In this document: one piece after another, positions 1 through 61,145 of the stretch
Layout of the letters: every line of letters starts with the position of its first letter
Position numbering within the stretch: the first letter of the stretch is position 1
Assembly (NCBI RefSeq): GCF_023702065.1
Contig: NZ_QFDM01000002.1
Span: 1-64,000 of the forward strand
Origin: Methanoculleus oceani
GTDB lineage: Archaea; Halobacteriota; Methanomicrobia; Methanomicrobiales; Methanoculleaceae
Direction of reading: 5' to 3'
DNA length: 64,000 nt
Program-made: the position numbers and the translations under genes
Notes under the pieces: model-generated
Told to the model about the DNA's origin: nothing
What the model saw: only the letters and a program-made list of their open reading frames with translations
The model's database searches: none

Positions 1-125
1 GTGGACCGTGGGAGAATCGCCATGGGGGGTGGGGACAGGGGAGGGGGGCTCGCCCCCCTCCCCTGAAACCCCTCGCACCCGACGGTGCTCATGCTCCTGC
101 CCTTCGGCCAGTCGCACTCCCCCAG
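1..125 (+). repeat. Dispersed GC-rich repeat, copy A (truncated by window edge)
   Basis: The copy begins with the terminal motif GTGGACCGTGGGAGAATCGCC, contains a strong hairpin (GGGGAGGGGGG with CCCCCCTCCCC around positions 38-65), and then a reversed hairpin-chain segment (CGCACCCGACGGTGCTCATG). The same order recurs near 26.2, 36.9, 50.1, 53.5 and 61.1 kb. No protein is supported here. The left edge may continue outside the window. Confidence 0.75.
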
Positions 126-1954: not shown

Positions 1955-2112
1955 GTGCGACGTTCCGGTAGGAACGACTGTCCGCAGGATGCGATGGCCC
2001 GCAGGGCCGGAGCTTGAGAAACCCGAAGGGTTTCGGACAGGAGTTCGAGAAGCCATCAGGCTTCGAGGAACGGAGCTTGAGAAAACCTGGAGGGTTTTCG
2101 AGTTGCGACTGC
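1955..2112 (+). repeat. Chain of short hairpins with constant linkers
   Basis: The 1453-2244 interval has no supported gene. Within it lies a run of small palindromes: CGTTCC-GGTA-GGAACG (1961-1976), GGCCC-GCA-GGGCC (1996-2008), AAACCC-GAA-GGGTTT (2019-2033), AAGCC-ATCA-GGCTT (2050-2063) and AAAACC...GGTTTT (2082-2098). The last three are each preceded by a nearly constant 10-mer, GGAGCTTGAG (2009, 2072) or GGAGTTCGAG (2040), giving a 31-32 bp period. TGCGAC or GCGAT precede the other stems. A plus-strand TATATAAA at 1673-1680 has no clear gene downstream. Confidence 0.75.
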
Positions 2113-26171: not shown

Positions 26172-26396
26172 CCGTACAGTGGACCGTGGGGATATCGCCA
26201 CTGGGGGAGGGGCTGACGGGGAGGGGGGAGCATCCCCCCTCCCCTGTCTCTACCTTGTACGCGGGCATCTGTAACCCCCACCCCGCCCGGCCTCCGGCCT
26301 CCTCCTCCGCACCTGCGGTGCTCAAACTCCCGCCGTCCGCTACGCTCCCGGCAGTCGTTCCCCGCCCCTTGGGGCGGGGGCAGTGCGTGGCGATAT
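26172..26396 (+). repeat. Dispersed GC-rich repeat, copy B
   Basis: The left end CCCGTACAGTGGACCGTGGG runs into GATATCGCCACTGGGGGAGG, a GGGGAGGGGGG/CCCCCCTCCCC hairpin, the block CCCCCACCCCGCCCGGCCTC, GCACCTGCGGTGCTCAAACT, a GC-rich hairpin (CCGCCCC-TT-GGGGCGG) and the right end GTGCGTGGCGATAT. It fills most of the 26077-26701 gap between lhr and the TBP gene. GTGGCGATAT is the inverted complement of ATATCGCCAC at the left end. Frames across it show no protein-like composition. Confidence 0.8.
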
Positions 26397-26680
26397 GCGA
26401 CCGGCCGAAGGTGCGACGTTCCTCAGGAACGGAGCTTGAGCACTGTCAAGTGCGGGGGCAGGAGCATGAGCACCGGAGGTGCGATGGCGAGGTTCCGCAG
26501 GAACCGAGATTAAGCGCCGCAGCACGAGCGCGATCAGATCCGAGCAACAAGCCTTCTTCTGTCCTGAAGAAATCGGCGGGCTTATGCAACCCAGATTACC
26601 CGTGCCAGGCGAACTGTTGCCACTCGAAAACGCTTCGCGTTTTCTCAGGCTCCGGCCCTGCGGCCCGTCGCCCGGCAAAA
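26397..26680 (+). repeat. Hairpin chain adjoining repeat copy B
   Basis: TGCGAC, CGTTCC-TCA-GGAACG, GGAGCTTGAG (26431-26440), CACT-GTCA-AGTG, GGAGCATGAG (26461-26470), CACC-GGAG-GTG and GGTTCC-GCA-GGAACC follow one another. The last part (26630-26680) holds an inverted unit, AAAACGC-TTC-GCGTTTT with CTCAGGCTCC and GGCCC-TGC-GGGCC-type stems. It has the same architecture as 1955-2112 but different stem sequences. Confidence 0.7.
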
Positions 26681-26701: not shown

Positions 26702-27283
26702 TTACATTATGGTTTCGAGCCGCTGCTCCAGGAAATCGAGTCCTCTCTTGATGTCCTCGATATTCTTGCCGCCGGTCAGGATGATCTTACCCGAACTGAA
26801 GAGAAGGGCGACGATCTTCGGGTCCTCGATGCGGTAGACGAGCCCCGGGAACTGCTCGGGCTCATACTCGATGTTCTCGAGGTTAAGGGTGATGACCACC
26901 TTGTTTAAGTTGATGTACCTGCCCATGTCGTACGAACAGACGATGTTCGTGATCGCGACCTGCGGCTCGCCGTAGGTATCGACGCCGGCATCCCGCAGCG
27001 ACTGCATGATGATCTCGAGGCCGTCATGCAGGTCCTGCTTGTTCCTGATACCGGTGAGCACCACTTTTCCCGAGGAGAATATCAGGGATGCGATCTTGGG
27101 TTTCTCGATGCGGTAGACCGCGCCGGGGAACCGCTTCGTATTCAGTTCACAGTTTTTTATTTTATCCGATACGTTTTCGAGGTCGATCGAGTCTGCAATC
27201 ACCCCGGAGGCAACGATGTTCTCAATTTTCAGTGACTCGTATCCCTTCTCATCCATTGATATGAGTATTATTTTTTGGACCAT
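26702..27283 (-). CDS. tbp: TATA-box-binding protein
   Basis: This is a TBP with the two internal direct repeats that form the saddle: FPGAVYRIEKPKIASLIFSS and FPGLVYRIEDPKIVALLFSS, each followed by GK-V/I-V/I-LTG. It nucleates RNA polymerase recruitment with TFB. A TATA-like CATAAAGAT near 27300-27308 fits a leaderless start at 27283, but the ATG at 27256 (MDEKGYESLKIENIV) is where family similarity begins, so the first nine residues are uncertain. It is the last minus-strand gene before the divergent acyl-CoA synthetase. Confidence 0.96.
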   Translation of the reverse strand: MVQKIILISMDEKGYESLKIENIVASGVIADSIDLENVSDKIKNCELNTKRFPGAVYRIEKPKIASLIFSSGKVVLTGIRNKQDLHDGLEIIMQSLRDAGVDTYGEPQVAITNIVCSYDMGRYINLNKVVITLNLENIEYEPEQFPGLVYRIEDPKIVALLFSSGKIILTGGKNIEDIKRGLDFLEQRLETIM

Positions 27284-36889: not shown

Positions 36890-37214
36890 TTCCACTGGAT
36901 ATCGCGATTGGGGGTGGGGCTGACGGGGAGGGGGGAGCATCCCCCCTCCCCTGTCTCTATCTCATACCTACCCCTCGTCCCCCGCCCGAAGACCTACGGT
37001 CTTCTCAAGCTCCGGACGTCCCGTCCGTCGCACCCCGCCCGGCCTCCGGCCTCCTCCTCCGCACCTGACGGTGCTCATGCGCCGGCCCTCTATGGCCCGT
37101 CGCACTCCGCACCTGCGGTGCTCAAATTCCCGCCGTCCGCTACGCTCCCGGCAGTCGTTCCCCGCCCCTGAGGGCGGGGGCAGTGCGTGGCGATTCTCCC
37201 ACGGTCCAGTGTGT
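36890..37214 (+). repeat. Dispersed GC-rich repeat, copy C (longest, with intact right inverted end)
   Basis: The left end is degenerate (TCCACTGGATATCGCGATTG), but the right end GTGGCGATTCTCCCACGGTC plus CAGTGT (37186-37209) is the inverted complement of the consensus left end. Between are the GGGGAGGGGGG hairpin and at least four hairpin units in reverse orientation, e.g. AAGACC-TAC-GGTCTT, GGACG-TCC-CGTCC, GGCC-TCC-GGCC, GGCCC-TCTAT-GGCCC and CACC-TGCG-GTG. It lies between malQ and the phosphorylase gene. Confidence 0.8.
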
Positions 37215-50051: not shown

Positions 50052-50259
50052 CTAGTGGACCGTGGGAATATCGCCACTGGGGGCGGGGCTGACGGGGAGG
50101 GGGCATGCCCCCTCCCCTGTCTCTACCTTATACTCAGACATCCGTAACCCCCACTCCGCCCGCGCTCCGCGCTCCTCATTCGCACCTTCGGTGCTCGAAC
50201 TCCTGCCGTTCCGGCAGTCGTTCCCCGCCCCCGGGGGCGGGGGCAGTGCGTGGCGATAT
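50052..50259 (+). repeat. Dispersed GC-rich repeat, copy D
   Basis: The copy starts AGTGGACCGTGGGAATATCGCC, has the hairpin GGGGAGGGGG-CATG-CCCCCTCCCC, CGCACCTTCGGTGCTCGAAC and GCCGTTCCGGCAGTCGTTCC, and ends GTGCGTGGCGATATG. A further hairpin (GGCCGAAGGGC, GAGCAGGAG linker) trails to about 50300. It sits in the 49775-50457 gap between the MFS and Nfn genes; the flanking 270 bp at 49775-50051 shows no gene. Confidence 0.8.
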
Positions 50260-50457
50260 GCGACTGGCCGAAGGGCAGGAGCAGGAGAAGAGCTTAGACA
50301 TTGGACTGGTAATGGACGGAACGTCCGGAGCACGAGCCCTGGAGGTGCGCAGTCCGATGGAACTCCGTTGATGGCTGGTCTGAACACCAAACAGCGTTAA
50401 GCGGTCTCGTATCAAACCCGGGCACCATCAGCCCCGGGCCAACCCCGAAAAAAGTAA

Positions 50458-53528: not shown

Positions 53529-53789
53529 CCCCGTACACTGGACCGTGGTGGATATCGCCACTGGGGGAGGGGCTGACGGGGAGTGCGAACGAGAGCGAGC
53601 TTGAGCACCGATAGGTGCGAGGGGGGGCGTGCCCCCCTCCCCTGTCCCTAACGCGTAGAGATCCACACTCCTCGTAGCCCCCACCCCGCCCGGCCTTCGG
53701 CCTCCTCCTCCGCACCTTCGGTGCTTAAACTCCTGCCGTTCCGGCAGTCGTTCCCGGCCCCCTGGGGCGGGGGCAGTGCGTGGCGATAG
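53529..53789 (+). repeat. Dispersed GC-rich repeat, copy E (with inserted hairpin unit)
   Basis: The left end CCCGTACACTGGACCGTGG is followed by GATATCGCCACTGGGGGAGG. A hairpin unit (GAGCTTGAG-CACC-GATA-GGTG-CGA, about 53598-53622) interrupts the GGGGAG...GGGGGG stem region seen uninterrupted in other copies. The right half has GGCC-TTC-GGCC, GCACC-TTC-GGTGC, GCCG-TTC-CGGC and the end GTGCGTGGCGATAG. It lies between the YbjQ and arcS genes, which converge. Confidence 0.8.
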
Positions 53790-53814: not shown

Positions 53815-53915
53815 TGCAACTGACGAAAGTTTGAGTGTCGCAGACGCGAAAGATACGTTCTGCGACGCTAAGTTTGAGCGCCGCAAAGAGCGAGCCCGGA
53901 GGGATCGAAGCCCCC
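53815..53915 (+). repeat. Hairpin chain adjoining repeat copy E
   Basis: AGTTTGAG precedes the stem GTCGCAGA (53837-53844)/TCTGCGAC (53859-53866), and a second AGTTTGAG (about 53871) follows with CGCCGCAAAGAGCGAG. It has the same linker-stem logic as the chains at 2.0 and 26.4 kb, with diverged linkers. Confidence 0.55.
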
Positions 53916-58320: not shown

Positions 58321-58672
58321 GGAGAGGGAGAGTGCGGCCGACGGTGGCACTTCCTGTGCTGCTGAGGAAAGTCCTCCCACCGGCCAGATACGCAGCCGCA
58401 TGCAAGTGCGGGTGGCGAGAGTCACGGCAATGACACAGAAACGGCACGGCCCGCCGTCAGTGATGAAACGACCGAGCCCCCCGTTCAGGGGGGCGAGAGG
58501 CGCGGATTTCCGCGCAACTCGTTGAACGTAGCGGCGGGATACGATGAAACGGTGAATCCCTGCGGGTGCAAGCCAGAATAGGGCATATGGATCGTCTGGT
58601 ATCCGCCCAGGTATGGCGCGTAGCTGAATGCCGCACAGAACAGAAGGAGGCTTACTCCTCCCACTCTTCACT
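58321..58672 (+). ncRNA. rnpB: RNase P RNA (archaeal type A)
   Basis: Conserved regions of the ribozyme appear in order: CR-I GAGGAAAGTCC (58364-58374) just after a hairpin-forming 5' region, ACAGAAAC (about 58434), GGGTGCAAGCCAGAATAGGG (about 58561-58585) and CR-V ACAGAA...GGCTTAC (58635-58655). The ends pair as helix P1: GAGAGTG (58328-58334) with CACTCTT (58662-58668). Size (~350 nt) fits type A archaeal RNA. With Rpp proteins it cleaves the 5' leader of pre-tRNAs. Exact ends are uncertain by several nt. Confidence 0.93.
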
Positions 58673-60975: not shown

Positions 60976-61145
60976 TATCGCCACGCACTGCCCCCGCCCC
61001 CCGGGGCGGGGGAGGAGGCCGGAGGCCGGGTGGAGTGGGGGTTACACGCCTCCTTATAGAATGGAGACAGGGGAGGGGGGCATGCCCCCTCCCCGTCAGC
61101 CCCTCCCCCGCGTGGCGATATCCCCACGATCCAGTGTACCGGGCA
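60976..61145 (-). repeat. Dispersed GC-rich repeat, copy F (reverse orientation)
   Basis: On the plus strand it begins CTATCGCCACGCACTGCCCC and ends CGTGGCGATATCCCCACGAT plus CCAGTGTACCGGG, the inverted complement of the consensus left end CCCGTACACTGGACCGTGGG. Inside are GGAGGCCGGAGGCCGGG, GGGGTTAC and the GGGGAGGGGGG/CCCCCTCCCC hairpin. It is the shortest copy (~170 bp). The rest of the 60854-61372 gap shows no gene. Confidence 0.8.

Follow-up and report, generated by a model that had tools for sequence, protein, structure and literature searches.

Nested chains of a double-hairpin repeat in Methanoculleus, probably a non-autonomous mobile element

Hairpin units and other features of the window

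The chain of hairpins considered here lies at positions 1955-2112 of the window (the whole stretch of DNA analysed, 64,000 nucleotides long), in a Methanoculleus genome of 2.455 Mb in 3 contigs. It consists of units that each comprise a hairpin A, a linker and a hairpin B:

1958-2079, plus strand: outermost unit, placed by sequence and arm positions; arms CGTTCC (1961-1966) and GGAACG (2067-2072), linker GGAGCTTGAG from 2072
2080-2098, plus strand: B hairpin of the outermost unit, GAAAACC...GGTTTTC, placed by sequence
1975-2066, plus strand: middle unit, lying within the stem of the outer one, with arms CTGTCC (1978-1983) and GGACAG (2035-2040), linker GGAGTTCGAG from 2040
2049-2064, plus strand: B hairpin of the middle unit, GAAGCC-ATCA-GGCTTC
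1990-2034, plus strand: innermost unit, beginning TGCGA; A hairpin TGGCCC-GCA-GGGCCG, linker GAGCTTGA from 2010; covariance model 44.4 bits (1990-2018)
2018-2034, plus strand: B hairpin of the innermost unit, GAAACCC-GAA-GGGTTTC

The middle stem surrounds the innermost unit, which is flanked by GGA left and right and lies in the middle unit's 3' arm, proximal to the loop, as the middle unit lies in that of the outer one. The linkers at 2009, 2040 and 2072, for which a period of 31-32 bp had been noted, have the spacing described but belong to three units nested one inside another, so that each interval is made up of a B hairpin, a closing arm and a linker; a tandem repeat of that period was rejected, since nesting accounts for the spacing. 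The minimum-energy RNA fold of the chain contains the full nest including the outer arms (-68.4 kcal/mol, z -4.0), whereas the DNA fold retains the middle stem and loses the outer one (z -5.1). In copies at other loci of the genus the arms change jointly: a C-G pair replaces T-A in both outer arms of L175, L176, L178 and L185 (and nearly so in L177), giving CGCTCC/GGAGCG, and the middle arms of L175-L177 become CCGTCC/GGACGG. The flanks of a further locus, L148, align to those of the 1955-2112 chain with unrelated DNA between them. Directly after the chain, at 2247-2690, two small consecutive open frames resemble, by eye, a HicB/HicA-type toxin-antitoxin pair.

Other units in the window lie within, beside or apart from copies of a longer repeat, referred to below as the host repeat:

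88-116, minus strand: unit, A hairpin and linker; covariance model 44.8 bits, E 1.4e-7
26177-26396, plus strand: host repeat containing G-rich hairpins, its ends (CAGTGGACCGTGGGGATATCGCCA ... TGGCGATA) forming an imperfect inverted repeat
26321-26359, minus strand: unit with enlarged A hairpin, within that host repeat; model 24.9 bits; orthologous host copy in L035 empty
26412-26514, plus strand: chain of units beyond the host repeat on its right side, in which hairpin A is CGTTCC/GGAACG and the B hairpins are GCACT and GCACC, the model match at 26486 being degenerate
26625-26672, minus strand: unit GCGA(CGGGCC..)GAGCCTGA(GAAAACGC-GAA-GCGTTTTC); model 41.2 bits for 26644-26672
26702-27283: TBP gene
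36985-37159, minus strand: chain in a host repeat (~36900-37211); model matches at 37004-37032, 37074-37104 and, weakly, 37121-37159
50175-50222, minus strand: AAC-type unit in host repeat 50054-50258, GGGAACGA(CTGCCG-GAA-CGGCAG)GAGTTCGA(GCACC-GAA-GGTGC); model 42.5 bits
50259-50336, plus strand: degraded chain adjoining the end of that host repeat; model 37.0 and 27.1 bits
53584-53620, plus strand: unit with short A hairpin in a host repeat at GACGGGGAG^GGGGGG, an occupied site; model only 15.1 bits
53705-53752, minus strand: AAC-type unit in the right half of host repeat 53536-53787; model 34.7 bits
~36900-37211, 50054-50258, 53536-53787, 61064-61136 (minus strand): further host-repeat copies
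58322-58666: archaeal RNase P RNA (Rfam 209 bits)

The model matches in the window lie at 88-116, 1990-2018, 26321-26514, 26644-26672, 37004-37159, 50194-50336, 53584-53605 and 53724-53752, those at 26486, 37121 and 53584 being weak (E 0.24-0.4); a further chain that had been noted at 53815-53915 gave no match at E<=1. The unit at 26625-26672 is also present in L034, in the corresponding position downstream of the TBP gene, whose best relatives (92-98%) are in Methanoculleus. RNase P RNA was the sole family matched in an Rfam scan of the window.

Architecture of the unit and paired changes in its stems

The recurrent unit is a double hairpin of about 45 bp, one strand of which reads RC-GA-(stem A)-GA-GY-NN-GA-(stem B)-G(A/G). 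This grammar was derived from 71 units in sampled stretches of the same genome, in which stem A is usually 6 bp (up to 10) and stem B 5-8 bp long. A covariance model finds at least 58 copies in the genome, and our genome-wide statements are based on pattern and model searches together with sampled stretches that total about 0.6 Mb. GA stands on either side of each hairpin (GA/GA). A C precedes the 5' GA in 51 of 52 distinct units, and the purine outside that C pairs with the fourth base of the linker (G-C in 36, A-T in 11, exceptions in 5; Fisher p=1.2e-7). Hairpin A is thus readable as a helix of outer pairs, two potential G-A pairs and an inner stem, and we infer that tandem G·A pairs form at the GA/GA flanks.

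The linker GGAGCNTGAG occurs 8 times in the window (0.97 expected; 0 of 100 shuffles reach this), and in a test that makes no use of the linker, GA...GA ranks first of 256 dinucleotide flanks for chained hairpins (36 in chains; median 2). Scanning an unselected 464 kb (the window plus 400 kb from the same contig) with the linker sequences only, we found 17 self-complementary blocks between RCGA and GAGYNNGA, compared with 0, 1, 1 and 0 for four control linker pairs and a mean of 1.1 (maximum 6) when the 3' half was permuted; in 925 kb of DNA from the order's other genera, none of 148 blocks was a hairpin.

Covariation in stem A was assessed on 65 distinct A blocks that were picked by linker and B hairpin and not by A pairing. 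In these blocks 86.5% of cells are paired (70.1% after shuffling), double-sided changes number 81 against 24.7+-5.0 in shuffles and affect 7 of 8 pairs, and the covariation score is 0.485 against 0.207+-0.016 (reached by 0 of 500 shuffles); the shuffles ignore relatedness, whereas the slid-register controls, which score 0.07-0.15, do not. One-sided wobble is tolerated mainly as T-G (17, versus 5 for A-C/C-A). The linker excess, the linker-only scan and the covariation thus bear out the original prediction of hairpin chains with nearly constant linkers and compensating stems, the stems being more self-complementary than expected and altered by paired changes.

Its further statement that the stems differ completely does not hold: about 24 A and about 17 B variants recur in the genome, and a single A stem can be found with as many as five different B stems, which indicates that the parts recombine. 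Whole units also recur as near-identical dispersed copies, and many stem variants are single paired changes apart, so that the copying mechanism once suggested for rewriting the stems is unneeded. In the recurrent A-stem family CYGGCC-GAA-GGGCRG, many copies retain a G-G mismatch at the fourth pair, and in a few B hairpins the sequence seems to have been inverted in situ, the loop being TTC and not GAA.

The loops are also non-random. Among C-G-closed triloops, GNA accounts for 36 of 65 in array hairpins and 48 of 520 in the remaining hairpins of this DNA (p=3e-17); among C-G-closed tetraloops, GNNA accounts for 25 of 37 and 17 of 368, respectively (p=6e-20). Within GNNA the array hairpins have 3 GNRA and 22 GNYA loops, compared with 12 and 5 in the background. 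The loops are mostly C(GNA)G and C(GNYA)G, and resemble stable DNA mini-hairpins more than the GNRA loops of RNA. Hairpins of the d(GCGAAGC) and d(cGNNAg) types are unusually stable as DNA. The early promoters of phage N4 provide a physical precedent only, as they serve one viral polymerase and are not a mobile repeat: a C-G closing pair and a three-base loop of 5' G and 3' A, which forms a sheared G:A pair, allow their small hairpins to extrude under physiological supercoiling, and their non-conserved stem bases are free to vary if pairing is kept (PMC4496689). At the level of sequence, our comparisons establish a paired constraint on the stems, and they support selection on the folded strand because the paired changes affect both sides, wobble tolerance is one-sided and the loops are non-random.

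Host repeat, insertion sites and distribution

The host repeat, of about 180 bp (CAGTGGACCGTGGGGATATCGCCA ... TGGCGATATCCCC...), has matches in 34 of 35 genomes of the genus, often 20-38 in each; with its several very G-rich hairpins it has the appearance of a MITE or of some large structured repeat. The double-hairpin unit is itself without the terminal inverted repeats that the separate host repeat has, and a MITE was rejected for it on this ground. One host position, GACGGGGAG^GGGGGG, holds units at 10 loci (53551 in the window, L024, L028, L031, L033, L134, L173 and L175-L177), and L235-L237 have units at the same position; the units found there carry different A and B hairpins, and 29 left halves of the host repeat were scored as uninterrupted. 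Both arms of the host hairpin in L237 bear units, in opposite orientation. Occupied and empty orthologous host copies were found twice (26321-26359 region of the window versus L035; L029 versus L040), although such pairs could arise by deletion. The ends of the units are not exact: flanks of GGA/GGA, GGG/GGG, GAG/GAG and GAAG/GAAG fit a target duplication of 3-4 nt, whereas GGG/GGA, CAG/GAG and GGAG/GAAG disagree with one, and most cases would be accounted for if a 3' GRR were part of the unit.

The units sit in the G-rich arm or at the loop edge of other hairpins, their own kind included, and chains and nests result. Of 95 units, 17 lie within an outer stem that pairs perfectly over at least 6 bp (control mean 6.2, maximum 10), an excess that is due in part to about nine copies of one nested chain among the 17, and most of the enclosing host hairpins share GA..GAG flanks.

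A model of hairpin A plus linker was searched against 120 genomes of the order. Copies per genome range from 1 to at least 61 across the 22 genomes of the genus with matches listed; G119, a genome of a sister genus in the same family, has 32 matches, many of them at contig ends, as is expected for a repeat; three genomes of other families have 1-2 matches each, possibly from contamination, and the rest of the 120 have no match. Within the genus, G007, G008, G011 and G012 are rich in units and G010, G030 and G001 poor. In 247 genomes of the phylum, matches at E<=1e-4 are confined to members of the genus. The form CGGTCC-GCA-GGACCG with GAAGACC-GAA-GGTCTTC is repeated in G119 (L223-L233) at several places within a related host repeat, often at contig ends. 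Tandem runs of 8-9 units of 44-46 bp each occur in G006 and G007, from which it follows that slippage also multiplies units. One common form of the unit has no exact match in IMG/VR contigs, and no cassette genes were seen between units, as would alternate with integron attC sites, whose folded single strand an integron integrase recognises. A CRISPR array was rejected, as the variable blocks are self-complementary and not unrelated spacers.

Gene context was obtained in the 464 kb from gene calls made by a simple hexamer script. The genuine clusters are intergenic; only 1 of 18 such clusters lies in a divergent gap, compared with 50 of 150 gaps of at least 100 bp (p=0.014), and nearly all lie downstream of at least one gene. 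Many clusters mix strands (e.g., -++, +--+ and --+-). By eye, chains in the relatives L242 and L238 start at the extreme 3' end of apparent genes (e.g., a phosphosugar-mutase-like C terminus), and units may thus rewrite protein tails in relatives.

Origin and nature of the repeat

We consider the chains to be a non-autonomous, self-nesting mobile double-hairpin repeat, a reading to which we assign a probability of about two in three. A mobile repeat that recognises hairpins and enters them would explain together the dispersal, the nests, the fixed linkers and the free stems. The form that is moved or recognised would be a folded single DNA strand, with hairpins extruded or exposed during replication, as the loops and orientation suggest; the fold would be stabilised by tandem sheared G-A pairs and by C(GNA)G or C(GNNA)G loops. 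Recognition of this fold would be the work of a host or passenger enzyme, which would insert copies at G-rich purine targets in other hairpins, and if pairing and not sequence is recognised in the stems, these could drift, the linkers being read directly. The units are probably selfish DNA that is tolerated between genes, away from divergent promoters. No moving enzyme was found, Y1_Tnp being without a match in this genome, and we count this against mobility. Of the structural selection that had been proposed on RNA or extruded DNA, selection on the folded strand is upheld, and the loop types and the mixed strands within one cluster lean towards DNA, short of proof: it is from loop types and orientation that DNA is favoured over RNA, the full nest is recovered better by RNA than by DNA folding, and DNA stability does not itself predict that GNYA should be preferred to other GNNA loops, a preference due in part to shared descent. 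Mobility, nesting, the GA/GA flanks and the host repeat were all absent from the original picture.

The chains might instead act as RNA, as structured transcript 3' ends or small RNAs under selection for folding (stability, processing or protein binding), their spread being a by-product. The z-scores for folding as RNA (-4.0 and -4.6), the complete nest in the RNA fold, the commonness of tandem GA pairs as RNA motifs, the tolerance of T-G pairs on the GA strand and the position of almost every cluster downstream of a gene all agree with this; nevertheless, we regard it as unlikely in view of units on both strands of one cluster, the near absence of GNRA tetraloops where triloops are common, copy numbers and positions that vary strongly between species, and an Rfam scan of the window matching only RNase P. 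Quasi-palindrome correction is a known mechanism, and stems could be kept perfect by it (template switching or gene conversion at replication, with arm-to-arm copying) under no structural selection at all. The very many double-sided and few half-way states of the A stems, and the B hairpins apparently inverted in place (TTC for GAA), would follow from it, and correction may help the stems to change; however, it predicts neither the fixed linkers, the GA/GA flanks and the R-Y pair across GA, nor GNA/GNNA loops far above those of other hairpins in the same DNA, nor the excess of T-G over A-C on one strand (17 to 5), and we judge it decidedly improbable as the whole explanation.

Least plausible of all, and in our view very improbable, are true REP elements moved by a RAYT or IS200-type Y1 transposase. 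REP/BIME sequences resemble the units as short extragenic palindromes of high copy number that are clustered or chained and fold in a strand-specific manner, and complementary changes in their stems define subfamilies (PMC3733652). They are, however, defined by a GTAG/CGTC foot (PMC3733652), whereas the units are two unequal hairpins with GA/GA flanks and no such foot. A Y1 transposase was rejected as the mover: PF01797 has 0 matches in this genome (controls matched), Y1_Tnp is missing from nearly all unit-rich genomes, and Y1 genes above the cut-off occur, G017 excepted, in genomes with few or no units. Within the genus, G033 has 19 Y1 transposase matches, several of them broken, and the common unit pattern is unmatched there.

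The mobile-repeat reading has named relatives, in contrast to the original statement that no repeat class of this pattern was known. Paquin, Laforest and Lang reportedly described in 2000 dispersed elements of two hairpins in fungal mitochondrial DNA and proposed them to be mobile. They resemble our units in hairpin number, dispersal and proposed mobility, and differ in being mitochondrial and fungal. To our knowledge, no enzyme is known for them either. In yeast mitochondrial GC clusters we know of no fixed GA/GA flanks or GNA-loop rule, and of no description of wholesale stem exchange under fixed linkers. These clusters (e.g., GC42), for which merger, shuffling and AG target sites have been reported, are likewise short, palindromic, mobile, intergenic repeats with a short target motif and stems more constrained than loops (PMC4478555), but they are organellar, whereas the Methanoculleus unit is found in an archaeal chromosome and nests inside hairpin arms. 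Hairpin elements of sponges and fungi are a nearby named kind (PMC2800124). Our units share with such elements the two hairpins with a short linker, the dispersed non-coding location and the presence or absence at orthologous sites (two pairs, for which deletion is possible); as they lie in archaeal and not mitochondrial DNA, we liken them to double-hairpin elements and GC clusters as a working comparison and do not class them as members. The family itself appears to have been previously unnoticed, and no description of it in Methanoculleus was found in the open-access literature. We tentatively raise the possibility of a new class of archaeal mobile element with a mainly structural code, in which mini-hairpins of the C(GNA)G type, with tandem G-A pairs to close them, would be recognised as folded single-stranded DNA by a non-Y1 enzyme preferring the arms of other hairpins, giving recursive nests and multi-branched DNA trees.

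For annotators of Methanoculleus genomes the chains carry a warning, in that they mimic regulatory RNA. They provide a natural, high-copy, genus-wide set of hairpins in which structure is conserved and stem sequence is not, with covariation built in, with sites both occupied and empty, and with nests in which the order of insertion is recorded. Hence the movement of tiny palindromes that lack an obvious transposase can be addressed directly in a prokaryote, a problem that yeast GC clusters and double-hairpin elements have posed for decades.
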